Of a DNA stretch of 64,000 nucleotides, positions 3,964 to 57,595 are shown piece after piece. The notes below the pieces were generated by a model. The model searched no databases, was not told the DNA's origin, and worked only from the letters and a program-made list of their open reading frames with translations. Location: contig NZ_CP007033.1 of NCBI RefSeq assembly GCF_000512895.1, forward strand, positions 1,475,001 to 1,539,000, read 5' to 3'. The position numbers and the translations under genes are program-made. Within the stretch, counting starts at the first letter, position 1. Each line of letters starts with the position of its first letter. The stretch is from Dehalobacter restrictus DSM 9455. Its GTDB lineage: Bacteria > Bacillota > Desulfitobacteriia > Desulfitobacteriales > Syntrophobotulaceae.

Positions 3964-3989
3964 AATAGAAGTTAAATATATTTATATAA

Positions 3990-4147
3990 TCTTAGGTGCC
4001 CCACTAAGGGAGAATAGGAAAATCGGTAATAATCCGATACGGACCCACCACTGTATAGACGAGTCCCCGCTGATCCACTGGCGTATGCTGGGAAGGTGCG
4101 TTCAGGACGTTTGAGTCTGAGTCAGGAGGCCTGCCTAAGAGGTAAAA
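3990..4147 (+). ncRNA. Cobalamin (AdoCbl) riboswitch
   Basis: The conserved blocks of the B12 aptamer appear in order: AGGTGCC, AGGGAGAATAGGAA, CCGATACGGACCCACCACTG, CCACTGGCG, CTGGGAAGGTGCG, GACG, and the B12 box GAGTCAGGAGGCCTGCC. The intrinsic terminator at 4186-4222 follows directly, so the likely mechanism is transcription termination when cobalamin is bound. It controls cobT. Confidence 0.93.
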
Positions 4148-4185
4148 GTCTTTCCTGGGTAATGGAAAGCGGCGGTGATGACGGC

Positions 4186-48161: not shown

Positions 48162-49736
48162 TAACTCAACTTTCCCACCCTGTCGGGTAGGTTGAAACCT
48201 TGAAAGTCTTTGAAAGTATGGTTAAATACAACAAGGAAACCACCAAATCTGGTATAATGAGAATAACCACAAACCCAATAATACCAGTACTTTGGAGGTT
48301 TCCTATGACCAGTATTATACCAGATTTGACGAGTAACGAAAATGCTGTTTCCTCACGAATCGATCAATATTTTATCCAGAATTCATTTTCCAAGCTCCTT
48401 AAACGTTGCAATTTTTATAAAGAATCAGGAATTCCGTGTGTGACTATTTTAAAAGAACTTTTCACCCTTGTTTTTACCGGAAAGAATCTCTTTAGAACAC
48501 TTGAAATGAAACCCGAAGAATTATCTTTCCGTAAAAATACAGCCTATCGCTTCTTAAACTCCGGTCATTATAATTGGTCAAAACTCCTGTTGTTACTAGC
48601 ATCTAAGGTCATTGATTTTGTTAATGGTTTGACCAGTGATGATCGGAAATCGGTACTCATTGTTGATGATTCTCTTTACAGCAGAAGTCGAAGTAAGAAA
48701 GTTGAACTGATGACTCGGGTCTTTGACCACACAACCCATAAATTTGTGAAAGGCTTTCGAATGCTGACTTTGGGCTGGTCCGATGGAAACACATTTCTGC
48801 CTATTGGTTTTTCACTCTTAAGTTCCCAGAAACCGGAGAAGATCTTGAATCCGGCCAAGCCTTTGGATAAGCGAACGATTGCTTACAAAAGAAGAACCGA
48901 GGCGATGGGGAGTACAACCGATGCTTTGATTAATCTTCTCCACTGTGCTGCTCATATTCCAGCTAAGTACGTTCTTTTTGACAGCTGGTTTGCCCATCCT
49001 AAGACGATCTTAAGGGTCAAACAAGAAAAGCGCGATGTTATTTGCATGTTGAAGATTACAGAGAAAATTCATTACCACTATAACGGAAAATGGCAGCCCC
49101 TTCAGGAACTTCGTAAATTGGCAGGTGATATTGCTGATGCTAAAACAGGGATCATCGGTTCAATAACAGTTCAAATACGTGAGACCAAAAATATTCAAGA
49201 CTTAACCGATGTGAAAATTGTTTTTGTTCAGGACAGACGATCGAAAAACTGGCTGGCCCTCCTGAGTACGGACTTGGAGCTATCTGAAGAAGAAATTGTC
49301 CGTATTTACGGCAAACGCTGGGACATAGAAGTTTTCTTCAAAGTATGCAAGTCGTATTTGGCTCTGGCTAAAGAATACCAAGGACGAAACTATGATGCTC
49401 AGGTAGCCGCAACATCCATCGTATTTCTAAGATACATTATGTTAGCAGTTGAAAGCAGAAATACTCAGGATGATAGGACAATTGGAGAACTATTTTACTA
49501 TTACAGTGATGAAATGGAAGATCTCAAACTTTCTCAAGCATTAGTATTGTTAATCGACACTCTCAGGCGTGTTCTAAGCAATTTTCCTGTCATAAGCCAG
49601 GAATTAGCCAATATGATTATGGATACTTTTCTTAGCACTATTCCACGGTCTTTCAAAGAACGATTGTTGTTTGCAACCTGATGTGTCAGAAAAATCATGG
49701 CTTTAACCATTATTTAATGGTGGGAAAGTTGAGTTA
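48162..49736 (+). mobile_element. IS4-family insertion sequence
   Basis: Terminal inverted repeats TAACTCAACTTTCCCACC (48162-48179) and its exact complement (49719-49736) enclose one transposase gene, 1,575 bp in all. The flanks ATTAAGTTAC (left) and ATTACAGTTAC (right) are nearly identical, differing by one base insertion, and suggest a 10-11 bp target duplication, as in IS231-like members. Confidence 0.88.
48305..49681 (+). CDS. IS4-family transposase
   Basis: 458 residues of the DDE transposase type 1 (IS4/IS231-like): first Asp in LIVDDSLYSRS, second in YVLFDSWFAHP, and the YREK-type glutamate region in YGKRWDIEVFFKVCKS. The reading frame is complete. ATG 48305 follows GGAGGTTTCCT; an upstream in-frame extension to 48200 begins inside the terminal region and has no ribosome binding site. 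Confidence 0.92.
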   Translation: MTSIIPDLTSNENAVSSRIDQYFIQNSFSKLLKRCNFYKESGIPCVTILKELFTLVFTGKNLFRTLEMKPEELSFRKNTAYRFLNSGHYNWSKLLLLLASKVIDFVNGLTSDDRKSVLIVDDSLYSRSRSKKVELMTRVFDHTTHKFVKGFRMLTLGWSDGNTFLPIGFSLLSSQKPEKILNPAKPLDKRTIAYKRRTEAMGSTTDALINLLHCAAHIPAKYVLFDSWFAHPKTILRVKQEKRDVICMLKITEKIHYHYNGKWQPLQELRKLAGDIADAKTGIIGSITVQIRETKNIQDLTDVKIVFVQDRRSKNWLALLSTDLELSEEEIVRIYGKRWDIEVFFKVCKSYLALAKEYQGRNYDAQVAATSIVFLRYIMLAVESRNTQDDRTIGELFYYYSDEMEDLKLSQALVLLIDTLRRVLSNFPVISQELANMIMDTFLSTIPRSFKERLLFAT

Positions 49737-49743
49737 ATTACAG

Positions 49744-51417
49744 TTACCTATCATTCACAACAAGGTCTTCCTGCATAATCTTGTTAAAAACAGTAACCAG
49801 ATACGGATCAAATTGTTTGCCGGCGCACTTATTGATTTCAACAAGTGCACTATAGGGGTCCATGGCCCGTTTATAGGGCCTTTCATGCGTGATCACATCG
49901 TAGGAATCAACAATAGAAACTATCCTCGAGAACAGCGGGATTTCATCTTCTTTCAGCCCCTGCGGGTAACCTTTTCCATTCCACCATTCATGATGACCGA
50001 GAACGGCTTCTGAGACATGCGCTAATTCCCTGGACGACTGCGTGATCCGATAGCCGATTTCGGAATGTTTTTTCATAATGCTCCATTCTTCCGGGGTCAA
50101 GTCACCTTGTTTTTTTAAGATTTCCCCCGGAACACCGATCTTGCCGATATCATGCAGCATTGCAACTTGGACCAATTCGACGATCTCTCTTGGGGACAGG
50201 CCGATCTGACTGCCGAATTTACTGACCAGACTTTTCAGCCTCATGACATGGGCTTCCGTCTGATAATCTTTTTCCCAGAGCAGTTTTTCCAGGAACTCGA
50301 TGATGGCAAGGCGGGATTTCTTGCTTTCATTTAATTTGTTGCTATACATTTTTTCCTCAGCCTGGCTGATCATTTTTGCCAGGGGTTGTTCCCTGTTCTC
50401 ATAAACCGTCAGGCCAAACGAGATATCTATTGGTACCGTTTGCGGGCGGGAGATTTTTAAATTATTTTTAATATTGTTTAAAAACACGCCGGCCTGATCA
50501 AGCGGCACACCAGGCATGATAATGATAAATTCGTCCCCGCCCCATCGGATAATCACATTCTCAGTGCCGATCGTCTCTTGCATGATTCTGATCCCGTCAG
50601 CAAGCAATTCATCCCCTTTTTCATGACCAAAGGTGTCGTTGATCAGTTTCAGACCATTAAAATCCCCCATGGCCAATGTTGCAGGCATGAGGGTTTTATC
50701 AAGGAAATCTTCCAGCACATTTTCAAAATAGGTACGGCTGTAGGCCCCCGTTAATTTATCATAAATGACAAGTTTTCTGATATTTGCTTCTTTGCTTTCG
50801 AGCTCCTCCCGGATGCTTTGAAAATACAGGGCCTGCATATTAAGATAAGCAAGCAGACCAACAACACCGGCAACTAAATAACCTACAGACGGTGAAATAA
50901 CGTTAATTAATTTGCACAACGGATAAAGTAAAATCGACAAGGCCCAAAAAATATAGGTATAGCCAAGTATTATTCGGATCGGGCCTTGTGGTGTTTTTGC
51001 TTTTAAGCATGTCATAGCAGCTTTGGATAATAATGCAATGATCCAGACAACAGATAGAAGTAAAAGAGCGGTTGCCGAGATTCCCTGAACAGCAATACAT
51101 ATAAAAGCAACGATCAGAAAGCCCGTGCCGATATCCCAAAACACCGGGTAGCTTCTGCTAAAAAACAACAGCGTACCCTTGAATATCAGCCAGTACCCTG
51201 CGATCGAAGAGGCATAGTTGATAATCTGAAGCACCACGGACGGGCTGTCGGTTTCCAGCAATGCAGTTCTGGAAAGATAGGTTATCATGAGCATCAAGAC
51301 AGAAAGACTCCATGCTAAGAAATAATGTTTCTTCTCGGAAAAATATAAAAATCCGTAAGATATCAACAAGACCAGGGTAATTGAAATACTGGCTGCAACG
51401 ATGGAATCCGCTGTCAT
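49744..51417 (-). CDS. Membrane GGDEF / HD-GYP c-di-GMP protein
   Basis: 557 residues: about seven membrane helices (1-200), a GGDEF domain (about 215-375; RWGGDEFIIIMPG) and an HD-GYP domain (about 380-555; HDIGKIGVPGEIL, HHEWWNGKGYPQGL). Both active sites look complete, so it may make and degrade c-di-GMP, with one activity possibly dominant. It is preceded by a c-di-GMP-I riboswitch and terminator, giving product feedback on its own transcript. GAGGAGGGGATTTAAT precedes the ATG. The 3' end abuts the IS4-type insertion, whose putative target duplication overlaps the stop codon. Confidence 0.93.
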   Translation of the reverse strand: MTADSIVAASISITLVLLISYGFLYFSEKKHYFLAWSLSVLMLMITYLSRTALLETDSPSVVLQIINYASSIAGYWLIFKGTLLFFSRSYPVFWDIGTGFLIVAFICIAVQGISATALLLLSVVWIIALLSKAAMTCLKAKTPQGPIRIILGYTYIFWALSILLYPLCKLINVISPSVGYLVAGVVGLLAYLNMQALYFQSIREELESKEANIRKLVIYDKLTGAYSRTYFENVLEDFLDKTLMPATLAMGDFNGLKLINDTFGHEKGDELLADGIRIMQETIGTENVIIRWGGDEFIIIMPGVPLDQAGVFLNNIKNNLKISRPQTVPIDISFGLTVYENREQPLAKMISQAEEKMYSNKLNESKKSRLAIIEFLEKLLWEKDYQTEAHVMRLKSLVSKFGSQIGLSPREIVELVQVAMLHDIGKIGVPGEILKKQGDLTPEEWSIMKKHSEIGYRITQSSRELAHVSEAVLGHHEWWNGKGYPQGLKEDEIPLFSRIVSIVDSYDVITHERPYKRAMDPYSALVEINKCAGKQFDPYLVTVFNKIMQEDLVVNDR

Positions 51418-51440
51418 ATTAAATCCCCTCCTCAGAAAAA

Positions 51441-51470
51441 AAAATCGCGGCCAAAGCAGCCGCGGTTTTC
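51441..51470 (-). terminator. Expression-platform terminator of the c-di-GMP riboswitch
   Basis: On the minus strand AACCGCGGCTG and GGCCGCGA form a stem with loop CTTT, followed by nine T residues. It lies directly between the aptamer and the GGDEF/HD-GYP ribosome binding site. Confidence 0.85.
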
Positions 51471-51481
51471 ATCTTCTGTGT

Positions 51482-51557
51482 GCAACCCGACTGTCAATAT
51501 GCTTCAGCACTTAGACTCGTAGCTTTGCGTCCCTGCTTTTCAACAGGTTTGCCAATG
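51482..51557 (-). ncRNA. c-di-GMP-I (GEMM) riboswitch
   Basis: On the minus strand the aptamer hallmarks are in order: ATTGGCAAACCTG, AAGCAGGGACGCAAAGC, a short stem with TACGAGTCTAAG, and ACAGTCGGGTTGC. A terminator hairpin follows. It should control transcription of the downstream gene, which itself makes or degrades c-di-GMP. Confidence 0.9.
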
Positions 51558-51577
51558 GATCATATGATTTTAACTCA

Positions 51578-51606
51578 ATTATAGTAAAATACACGAAATC
51601 TGTCAA
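51578..51606 (-). promoter_or_regulatory. Consensus sigma-A promoter of the riboswitch-GGDEF/HD-GYP transcript
   Basis: On the minus strand TTGACA and TATAAT are separated by exactly 17 bases, both matching consensus. The predicted start lies about ten bases before the aptamer. Confidence 0.85.
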
Positions 51607-51670
51607 TAAATGTATGAATAATCAATAAATGTATGAATATTCAGAGTCTGACTATTCATACATTTATTGA
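51603..51670. repeat. 18-bp repeats overlapping the -35 box
   Basis: TCAATAAATGTATGAATA occurs at 51603-51620 and 51622-51639 in tandem and inverted at 51653-51670. The first copy overlaps the -35 box; the second and inverted copies form a hairpin with a 13-base loop. They could be operators of an unknown regulator or an AT-rich terminator of the upstream gene. Confidence 0.6.
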
Positions 51671-51735
51671 TTAATATTATGCAATAGATATTATCATCCA
51701 GATCAGATTCTTCTTACATGGTTTCCAAATTTAGT

Positions 51736-52230
51736 TCATGTTTTTTTCCTTTGGATGATCAGGATCAGACCTGCCAGAATCAGCAGGATCGGGACCACCA
51801 GGCCTAGATCTATATAGCGCTGAATTGACGTTACAAACATCCCAGTAAAGGATATGCACGCTAGAGCGGTTAGAATAAAAACAGGCACCAGCAGACCGCG
51901 CGGGCGTCCGGAAAATAAATAGAGTTGAAATAGACCGACTGCAACAGCCAGCGGATAGACCGGCCAGGTATATCCGGAAAATTGCCAGTGTGTAAAAGTC
52001 TCAAAGATGAACAACAGACCAATAACGGTAAGGATACCACCGGGAACTAGCAATCCGGGGCTTTCTTTCTTACTGAAATAGTTGAATTCAAAAGCAAGCC
52101 CGAGAATAAGGATCAATACCGGCCAAAGAAATTCCATACTGAAGATTTGCCAGTTGCCAAGATTATCTATAAGCAGCAAGCCTCCTGTAAGGATTAGAAT
52201 GATTCCCCAAAATAAGCCGCTTTTGTTCAT
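51736..52230 (-). CDS. Membrane protein of the LiaI/LiaF-TM (DUF5668-like) type
   Basis: 164 residues with about six short hydrophobic segments, beginning SGLFWGIILILTGGLLLIDNLG, a pattern shared by small cell-envelope-stress membrane proteins such as LiaI and the N-terminal part of LiaF. No soluble domain is present. AGGAGGCTCTAT precedes the ATG. Function is unknown; association with envelope stress is a family-level guess. Confidence 0.65.
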   Translation of the reverse strand: MNKSGLFWGIILILTGGLLLIDNLGNWQIFSMEFLWPVLILILGLAFEFNYFSKKESPGLLVPGGILTVIGLLFIFETFTHWQFSGYTWPVYPLAVAVGLFQLYLFSGRPRGLLVPVFILTALACISFTGMFVTSIQRYIDLGLVVPILLILAGLILIIQRKKT

Positions 52231-52308
52231 ATAGAGCCTCCTCTCACCTTATAAAGGTTAATAAGATACTCGAGATTTAAGAACTACAAATTCGTGTTAG
52301 ATAATGGA

Positions 52309-53190
52309 TTATTTTGATAAATAAAGTTCCCCGTCGTAGGAAGAAATCCTTCCATATAGATCAGGCCGGCGGTCTCTAAAGATCCCCCACTCCAGCCGCT
52401 GAACCTCGAGCTGGTCCAGATCAAATTCCGCGATTAGAACCGCTTCTTCGTTTCGTCCAGCCTCCGCTATCTTATTACCCTGCGGTCCGGCAATGAAAGA
52501 AGAACCATAGAAGGTGATTTTGGAATCATCCTCTTCCTCGACACCAATCCGGTTGGATGCGACCACAGGGATCAGGTTCGCGGCAGCATGGCCGAGCATG
52601 CAGGCCTGCCAATGGTCTTTGGAATCGATCGCCTGATCCATCGGTTCTGAACCGATGGCTGTCGGATATAACAGGATCTCCGCCCCCATCAGGGTCATGC
52701 AGCGGGCAGCTTCCGGGTACCATTGATCCCAACAGACGCCGACTCCAATCTTGGCGTAGCGCGTTTGCCAGACTTTAAAGCCTGTATCACCGGGGTTAAA
52801 ATAGAATTTTTCCTCATAGCCCGGCCCGTCGGGGATATGACTCTTTCTGTATTTGCCGAGGATCTCACCATCGGCATCAATCACGGCAATCGTATTATAG
52901 CGCGCGTAGTTTTTCTTCTCATAAAAACTGATCGGCAGGACGATCTCCAGCTCTCTGGCAATTTTCCGGAAATGTCTGACTGCTTGATTATCTTCTAGCT
53001 CTGCTGCATAAAGGTAAAAATCCGATTTTTCTTTCTGACAAAAATACGGGGTTTCGAACAACTCCTGCAATAGGATGATCTGCGCGCCCCGGGCTGCTGC
53101 CTCCCTGACCAGTGTCTCCGCCCCCGCAATATTTTCTTCAACGTTACTGGTGCAGCGCATCTGGGTTGCTGCCACTTTGACGTTTCTCAT
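52309..53190 (-). CDS. aguB: N-carbamoylputrescine amidohydrolase
   Basis: Nitrilase-superfamily enzyme of 293 residues that turns N-carbamoylputrescine into putrescine, CO2 and ammonia. The catalytic triad is visible: Glu in LLQELFETPYF, Lys in GKYRKSHIPDG and Cys in GVGVCWDQWYPEAAR. It lies downstream of agmatine deiminase on the same strand (230-base gap), completing the agmatine-to-putrescine route. GGAAGG precedes the ATG. Confidence 0.93.
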   Translation of the reverse strand: MRNVKVAATQMRCTSNVEENIAGAETLVREAAARGAQIILLQELFETPYFCQKEKSDFYLYAAELEDNQAVRHFRKIARELEIVLPISFYEKKNYARYNTIAVIDADGEILGKYRKSHIPDGPGYEEKFYFNPGDTGFKVWQTRYAKIGVGVCWDQWYPEAARCMTLMGAEILLYPTAIGSEPMDQAIDSKDHWQACMLGHAAANLIPVVASNRIGVEEEDDSKITFYGSSFIAGPQGNKIAEAGRNEEAVLIAEFDLDQLEVQRLEWGIFRDRRPDLYGRISSYDGELYLSK

Positions 53191-56331: not shown

Positions 56332-56880
56332 TTATAAAAGTATGACGGTTAAAAATTTTGCTGATCTTTTTTCGAGGGCTAGCATTTTATGTGGAATCAA
56401 GGAATTAAAATACAGAGAGTCTCCCGGGTCCAGCACATATTCCATACTGCCGATGATGACTTTCATCTTGCCTTCCAGACAGAAGTTAAATTCCTGTCCG
56501 TGATGGGAAACAAGTTCAGGACTATTTTCTGCATCCAGGGTCACCAGCAGCGGTTCAATTTTTCTGTTAACGTACTGATAAGCCAGACTCTGAAAATCAT
56601 ACTGGTCATACCGTTCAACTTTGAGACCCTTACCCTTTTTGATGAAGCAGACATCATGCAGTTTGGGCGAGACACCGGTAAGAACATCCGTTAAATCGAC
56701 CTGATAACAATCGGCAATTTCATAGAGAATACTGATCGGAATATCATCTTCTCCTTTTTCATACTTCAGATATTCTTGAACAGGTAGTCCGATTTTACGC
56801 GCAGCCTCTTCTTCGGCCCAACCGGTAAGTAATCTTAAGCCTTTAATTCTCTCGGCAATATCCCTCACCTTTTCATTCAT
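56332..56880 (-). CDS. XRE-family regulator with C-terminal cupin domain
   Basis: 182 residues: an N-terminal helix-turn-helix (about 5-60; KGLRLLTGWAEEEAARKIGL, YLKYEKGEDDIP) and a C-terminal small cupin (about 110-180; HHGQEFNFCLEGKMKV, LDPGDSLYFNSLIPHKM). Such proteins sense small molecules with the cupin barrel and repress or activate nearby metabolic genes. The gene overlaps the upstream PilZ gene by eight bases and precedes the acyl-CoA synthetase, which is its probable target. GAAAGGAAGG precedes the ATG. Confidence 0.88.
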   Translation of the reverse strand: MNEKVRDIAERIKGLRLLTGWAEEEAARKIGLPVQEYLKYEKGEDDIPISILYEIADCYQVDLTDVLTGVSPKLHDVCFIKKGKGLKVERYDQYDFQSLAYQYVNRKIEPLLVTLDAENSPELVSHHGQEFNFCLEGKMKVIIGSMEYVLDPGDSLYFNSLIPHKMLALEKRSAKFLTVILL

Positions 56881-57595
56881 CTTTCAAGCCTTCCTTTCGC
56901 GTGAAATAGTGGATCATGTAATGATCCTCGAGGTACAGCCAGCGGGCCTTACACCTTTGTTCCTGCACAACGGCATTTGTCTCGAGAAGATGATCCGCTT
57001 TTTTGGCATCTTCCAGCAGGCAGAATGGGCAGGCATGATGCCGTTTGGCGACCGTGGAATAACAGCGCTCGCCAAGTTTGACACCGCTGTCCTGCGCTGC
57101 CTTATTTGTGGCGACAACGATCCGGCGGCTGGTAATCAGATAAGCCGGTTCTTCGATCAGCTCCAAGCCCTTGACAAAGCATCCGATGTATTTCTGTTTG
57201 CGTAAATCAAGCTGAATCTTCATAAAGCGGGTGTGCTTGATTTTATATTGATTCAGACATCGGGTGATCCGGCTTTCATCTTTCTGGGAATGAAAAAGGA
57301 ATTTCATCCCGTATTCAAAGCCGTCATCTTTGGGGGTCTTGCGAATAATCAGCGCATTAAATGAAAATTCTTCATTTTCAAACGTAAACATGATATCGAT
57401 AATGACAATATTGACTGGAATATCCACTGGGAAAAAAGCATATATCCCACCTGTGCTCAAATCCAGGATTGCAATCGGAAATGTTTTCTCCACTTCGACC
57501 TTCCGGTTGTTAATCGAGGAAATCTTCGCTGTGGCTGGAATATCATGGATCAAATCGACACGGAAATACTTCCGCTTTTCCTGAAAGTCTTCCAT
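56873..57595 (-). CDS. PilZ-domain protein with C-terminal Cys-rich PAS-like region
   Basis: 240 residues. The N-terminal PilZ domain has both c-di-GMP-binding motifs, RKYFR (RxxxR) and DLSTGG (DxSxxG). The C-terminal half (about 130-235) has GERCYSTVAKRHHACPFC, a Cys/His pattern seen in some PAS-related sensor regions and possibly binding metal or a cofactor. It is the first gene of an operon with an XRE-cupin regulator and an acyl-CoA synthetase, linking c-di-GMP to acyl-CoA metabolism. GAGGTGATTGG precedes the ATG. Confidence 0.8.
   Translation of the reverse strand: MEDFQEKRKYFRVDLIHDIPATAKISSINNRKVEVEKTFPIAILDLSTGGIYAFFPVDIPVNIVIIDIMFTFENEEFSFNALIIRKTPKDDGFEYGMKFLFHSQKDESRITRCLNQYKIKHTRFMKIQLDLRKQKYIGCFVKGLELIEEPAYLITSRRIVVATNKAAQDSGVKLGERCYSTVAKRHHACPFCLLEDAKKADHLLETNAVVQEQRCKARWLYLEDHYMIHYFTRKEGLKDE

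Follow-up and report, generated by a model that had tools for sequence, protein, structure and literature searches.

In Dehalobacter restrictus DSM 9455, the gene of a putative c-di-GMP-metabolising enzyme is preceded by a c-di-GMP-I (GEMM-I) riboswitch leader and by an array of 18-bp repeats that reaches into its promoter. We consider it fairly probable that these are two separate things, an OFF riboswitch acting on the enzyme gene and a 19-bp minisatellite, and that the latter does not serve a conserved regulator as its operator. If this is true, a c-di-GMP riboswitch would control the turnover of c-di-GMP itself, in an obligate organohalide-respiring bacterium. Unless a genome label is given, positions refer to the window, the whole stretch of 64,000 nucleotides that was analysed.

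The enzyme gene (49744-51417, minus strand, ATG at 51417) was identified as an open reading frame with Pfam matches and encodes a product of 557 amino acids, whose N-terminus appears hydrophobic by eye. A GGDEF domain spans residues 218-365 (Pfam, 1.5e-27) and an HD-GYP domain residues 376-539 (Pfam HD_5, 2.7e-35), which bears out the sequence-only reading of a GGDEF/HD-GYP gene downstream of the leader. The HD-GYP part could be aligned to the solved chain 4mcw with an E value of 1.8e-36. GGDEF, HDIGK and NGKGYP, which we take to be the catalytic motifs, were read in the translation, and both domains with their motifs look intact. By eye, there is no RxxD inhibitory site five residues ahead of GGDEF. 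We describe the product as a putative, bifunctional-looking c-di-GMP cyclase/phosphodiesterase, which probably makes or breaks c-di-GMP. A likely ribosome-binding site, AGGAGGGG (AGGAGG), is present at 51426-51433 on the same strand.

Promoter, aptamer, terminator and enzyme gene all lie on the minus strand. The promoter scan found a -35 box TTGACA (51606-51601) and a -10 box TATAAT (51583-51578) separated by a 17-nt spacer, giving a sigma-A score of 12/12. Within 51380-51760 it returned four promoter-like sites against 1.9 in shuffled sequence, and TTGACA-17-TATAAT was the only one with a perfect score. Positions 51478-51563 match the Rfam model RF01051 (model 1-87) at 69.8 bits, above its curated gathering score of 35 bits. 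An intrinsic terminator was located at 51436-51464 (stem 51464-51446 and a U tract) by terminator scan and RNA folding; terminator-like sites in 51380-51760 numbered two against 0.2 in shuffles, the second being the same stem on the opposite strand. The perfect promoter, the GEMM-I aptamer and the terminator proposed earlier for this leader are all confirmed by these scans. With a promoter and an expression platform (terminator and antiterminator fold) recognisable from sequence and folding, the aptamer's assignment as a standard c-di-GMP riboswitch is supported, and ligand binding is predicted. In GEMM-I aptamers, selectivity over cGAMP is a matter of position 20.

The direction of the switch was approached by folding growing transcripts at every third length, as minimum-energy folds that leave out ligand energy and kinetics. 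Transcripts of 97 to 118 nt keep aptamer helix P3 in their minimum-energy fold. For those of 121, 124, 127 and 130 nt the minimum is an antiterminator in which the P3 segment CAGUCGGGUU pairs with AACCGCGGCUG, which includes the 5' arm of the terminator, and from 133 nt on the terminator itself is the minimum. The predicted antiterminator would thus draw its 5' arm from the 3' strand of P3 (CAGTCGGGTT, 51484-51493, minus) and its 3' arm from AACCGCGGCTG (51457-51467, minus), which includes the terminator 5' arm. Ligand binding should block this pairing, and hence we infer an OFF switch. In the proposed mechanism, the strong sigma-A promoter would drive transcription into the aptamer leader. 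At low c-di-GMP, the 3' strand of P3 and the terminator 5' arm would pair and the enzyme gene would be transcribed, while at high c-di-GMP the P3 strand would be held by the bound aptamer, the terminator would form and transcription would stop. The sign of the feedback would depend on the activity of the product, which carries both GGDEF and HD-GYP domains: an enzyme acting mainly as a cyclase would give negative feedback, and one acting mainly as a phosphodiesterase positive, switch-like feedback. Premature termination is also the mode of action of Cdi1_9 and Cdi1_12, two type I switches of C. difficile (PMC3649979). They resemble the present leader in having an aptamer followed by a terminator and in ligand-induced termination, which is predicted here, and differ from it in that the D. 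restrictus target is a c-di-GMP enzyme.

Orthologous leaders were compared between the D. restrictus genome containing the window (G000), the rest of a five-genome set of the genus (G001 to G004), and genomes of two other genera (G013 and G015). The orthologous enzymes share 92% (G001), 90% (G002) and 96% (G004) protein identity with that of D. restrictus, and the distant ones 56% (G003) and 63% (G013). In G015 the orthologue is 48% identical over residues 2-200 and stops at the end of the contig that carries the aptamer; a second contig, matching residues 195-553 at 69%, is probably the rest of the enzyme gene. All seven leaders examined have TTGACA-17-TATAAT (12/12) ahead of the aptamer, all seven keep the aptamer, the more distant G003, G013 and G015 included, and in all seven the eye picks out a terminator-like hairpin and T run downstream of it. 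The antiterminator is more variable. Out of four further leaders folded (G002, G003, G013 and G015), the G002 leader showed the same pairing of P3 with the terminator arm at intermediate lengths. In G003 the terminator arm pairs with the 5' strand of P3 and not with its 3' strand; in G013 the region of the P3 3' strand pairs with the terminator region in a different register, extending beyond the 5' arm; for G015 a downstream pairing was flagged, the fold obtained not being an antiterminator of the D. restrictus kind. The earlier suggestion of feedback on a c-di-GMP enzyme finds support in the riboswitch, promoter, terminator and intact-looking GGDEF and HD-GYP motifs, and in the retention of promoter and aptamer among orthologues.

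Such feedback is a rarer target for a known kind of switch. D. restrictus has 14 c-di-GMP-I aptamers above the cutoff, two of them ahead of c-di-GMP enzyme genes. The second, at G000:2431223-2431308, is followed by an HD_5 gene (7.8e-27) with a GYP-like motif by eye; it is likewise a GEMM-I leader ahead of an HD-GYP-like gene, and the 18-bp unit is missing upstream of it. G001, G002 and G004 have aptamers of similar sequence, possibly at the corresponding position. Going by the translations, the remaining 12 D. restrictus aptamers precede secreted-looking or permease-like proteins or no clear nearby gene. In another genus of the same family, the aptamer at G010:3349353 has immediately downstream of it a PAS-GGDEF frame (3.8e-24), which runs on into a GGDEF/HD-GYP match, again a GEMM-I leader on a c-di-GMP enzyme, with no 18-bp unit at up to one mismatch. 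No GEMM-I aptamer above the gathering score was found at the 20 loci scanned, out of 80, of more distant GGDEF/HD-GYP relatives, in flanks of up to 3 kb (less at contig ends) that could miss a leader lying far upstream. A literature search turned up two papers naming both Dehalobacter and c-di-GMP, neither of them concerned with such a switch as judged by title and start of abstract, and PMC11477304 yielded nothing on c-di-GMP enzymes for the terms sought.

Upstream of the promoter, the pattern search located three exact copies of an 18-bp unit, at 51603-51620 and 51622-51639 on the plus strand and, inverted, at 51653-51670 on the minus strand. In shuffled sequence the 18-mer gave a mean of 0.13 matches within three mismatches, and three matches were reached in none of 100 shuffles; exact repeats of this kind lie far outside chance expectation. 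The direct pair has a 19-bp period and forms the top-scoring Tandem Repeats Finder array of the window (score 75, the next being 57). It had been claimed that tandem 18-bp repeats and an inverted third overlap the -35 box; the three exact copies stand, whereas the overlap is confined to four bp of the proximal copy (51603-51606). A single 27-bp inverted repeat (51619-51645 / 51647-51673), whose arms are 96% complementary and 1 nt apart, takes in the second direct copy together with the inverted one. Where the proximal copy has the true -35 TTGACA, the distal copies read TTGATT or TTGATG, as is expected if the flank of the -35 box was the seed of the array.

The number and orientation of the copies vary between relatives. 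D. restrictus has two direct copies and one inverted copy, all identical. G001 has four identical direct copies and one inverted copy with a one-base insertion (4.2 copies in Tandem Repeats Finder), G002 two direct copies with one mismatch each, and G004 one exact copy and one degenerate copy with four mismatches. The array is therefore a variable tandem repeat in the sense that copy number differs between species. No unit within four mismatches was found at the fetched loci of G003, G013 and G015, which keep promoter and aptamer. Conservation at orthologues, proposed earlier as the decisive check, is thus split: the unit is present in four of the five genus genomes, that of the window included, and absent at those three loci. 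Across 73 genomes of the order, matches with up to one mismatch numbered 10, in four genomes and at the enzyme-gene locus only.

These comparisons have to be read against the history of the locus. In the 150 bases ahead of the start codon, differences from D. restrictus amount to 0/150 in G001, 2/150 in G002 and 6/145 aligned positions in G004 (5 gap columns), and in the first 150 coding bases to 17, 27 and 8, respectively. Along 49744-52230, D. restrictus and G001 differ by 0-5 changes per 150 in the 900 bases upstream of the start codon, by 13-23 per 150 in the first 750 coding bases and by 1-8 per 150 in the next 900, so that one border of the pattern is the start codon itself. This contrast indicates that the upstream segment was exchanged recently and that the locus is a mosaic, and because of this the repeat arrays of the two genomes are not independent. 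Fourfold sites of the enzyme gene, which differ by 15-20%, serve as a yardstick for the others and an unfair one for G001 on account of the mosaic. The proximal unit shows 0/18 changes in G001, 1/18 in G002 and 0/18 in G004, and the block from the end of the -35 box to the -10 box 0/25 in all three. Under drift alone one would expect more change in the proximal unit, which may therefore have a function; we regard it as probably constrained as a promoter flank. The nine bases ahead of the -35 box, ATACATTTA, agree by eye at seven of nine positions with AAACATTAA of G013 and G015, which fits an older promoter flank duplicated later within the genus.

We infer the mutational origin of the array and any effect it has on expression. 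Tandem duplication of the -35 flank within one genus would have produced the 19-bp minisatellite, and two members, D. restrictus and G001, would also have acquired an inverted duplicate and a flip of the centre. In D. restrictus the 17-nt centre of the hairpin reads as the exact reverse complement of the G001 sequence. A single inversion through strand switching within the hairpin would account for the three clustered differences, which three substitutions could also have produced. As for expression, the array would possibly tune promoter strength at most. It lends itself to testing whether a minisatellite next to a strong promoter can tune a signalling enzyme.

The alternative that survives best, although we hold it to be unlikely, is an operator array, in which a dedicated and perhaps single-target DNA-binding protein would repress or activate the promoter through the 18-bp units. 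The proximal unit does overlap the -35 box and is nearly invariant in four genus genomes, and the copies are identical to one another in D. restrictus and among the direct copies of G001; against this, copy number and orientation vary, a spacing of 19 bp does not correspond to an integral number of helical turns, and three orthologues that retain the promoter lack the unit. A search of the D. restrictus genome (one contig of 2,943,336 bases) with up to three mismatches gave nine matches, three of which are the array itself, against six for a reversed-pattern control, and none of the 13 remaining GEMM-I leaders has a unit within four mismatches in the 250 nt ahead of it, the best having five. 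The regulon expected from such a search did not appear: there is no excess beyond the array, and matches with up to one mismatch are confined to one locus. At up to two mismatches, the five genus genomes contain four matches off the locus, one each in G000, G002, G003 and G004, against none in the control. With three of these placed, G000:1542745 between genes and those of G003 and G004 inside coding frames, the searches did not show the same site upstream of several genes. The four matches, one of them intergenic in the organism's own genome, nevertheless weigh against dismissing a regulator. A domain scan of five neighbouring genes, including two upstream at 51736-53190, turned up no DNA-binding regulator domain; the HTH/cupin gene found roughly 4.9 kb upstream (56332-56880) is unlinked to the array by any evidence. 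The second, protein-based control layer of the sequence-only reading is thus not supported, given the variable copy number, the missing unit in distant orthologues and the lack of a regulon.

A stronger form of the minisatellite reading would make the array a contingency locus, in which slippage among the 19-bp units, or a flip inside the inverted repeat, would alter promoter strength and with it the c-di-GMP set point in subpopulations. Neisseria and Haemophilus have contingency loci with variable-copy repeats upstream of genes. Tandem repeats upstream of genes in Mycoplasma hyopneumoniae likewise vary in copy number (PMC5179023). The present array differs from these in having a 19-bp unit beside a consensus -35 box, an inverted copy and a riboswitch. 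In favour of a contingency locus, D. restrictus and G001 carry two and four direct copies in nearby upstream DNA only 0-5 changes per 150 apart. That comparison is however one between species, with one genome per species, and the units lie upstream of a promoter which is already consensus, with a -35/-10 spacing of 17 in all seven leaders; we think a contingency locus rather unlikely. Two-tier control, in which a hypermutable 19-bp array would set promoter strength heritably, the riboswitch would provide fast feedback and lineages would differ in c-di-GMP set point, is similarly doubtful.

The 27-bp inverted repeat might instead terminate transcription of the LiaF-like gene upstream (51736-52230, minus), 3' of which it sits, or form the 3' end of its mRNA. 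The RNA of 51600-51690 folds very stably (-28.1 kcal/mol, z -7.1). Its stem is however A/T-rich and without a clean U tract, and the terminator scan, run over 51380-51760, did not pick it up; moreover, G002 and G004 keep the direct units while having neither the inverted copy nor the LiaF-like gene here. This makes such a role quite improbable. A mobile-element remnant with terminal inverted repeats, for which the inverted copies and a DDE transposase gene 3' of the enzyme gene (48200-49681) could be cited, is highly improbable and was rejected, since the unit with up to one mismatch is confined to a single locus in each of four genomes, the arms enclose no cargo and the transposase gene lies beyond the 1.7-kb enzyme gene.

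Several other features were recorded in the surroundings. The LiaF-like gene is predicted to be a membrane gene and is found upstream in D. restrictus and G001, and the sequence at its place in G002 and G004, where it is missing, reads as the end of a carbon-nitrogen hydrolase gene. The transposase gene, assigned by Pfam, is on the plus strand just 3' of the enzyme gene. A PilZ-domain protein, a putative c-di-GMP receptor, is encoded on the minus strand at 56873-57595, roughly 5.5 kb ahead of the enzyme gene. Elsewhere in the D. restrictus genome, two tandem GEMM-I aptamers whose starts are 105 nt apart (G000:C1:1953873-1954053) precede a secreted-looking protein, with a third, similar one at 1951645. 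The window also contains a cobalamin riboswitch at 3977-4152 on the plus strand (87.7 bits).
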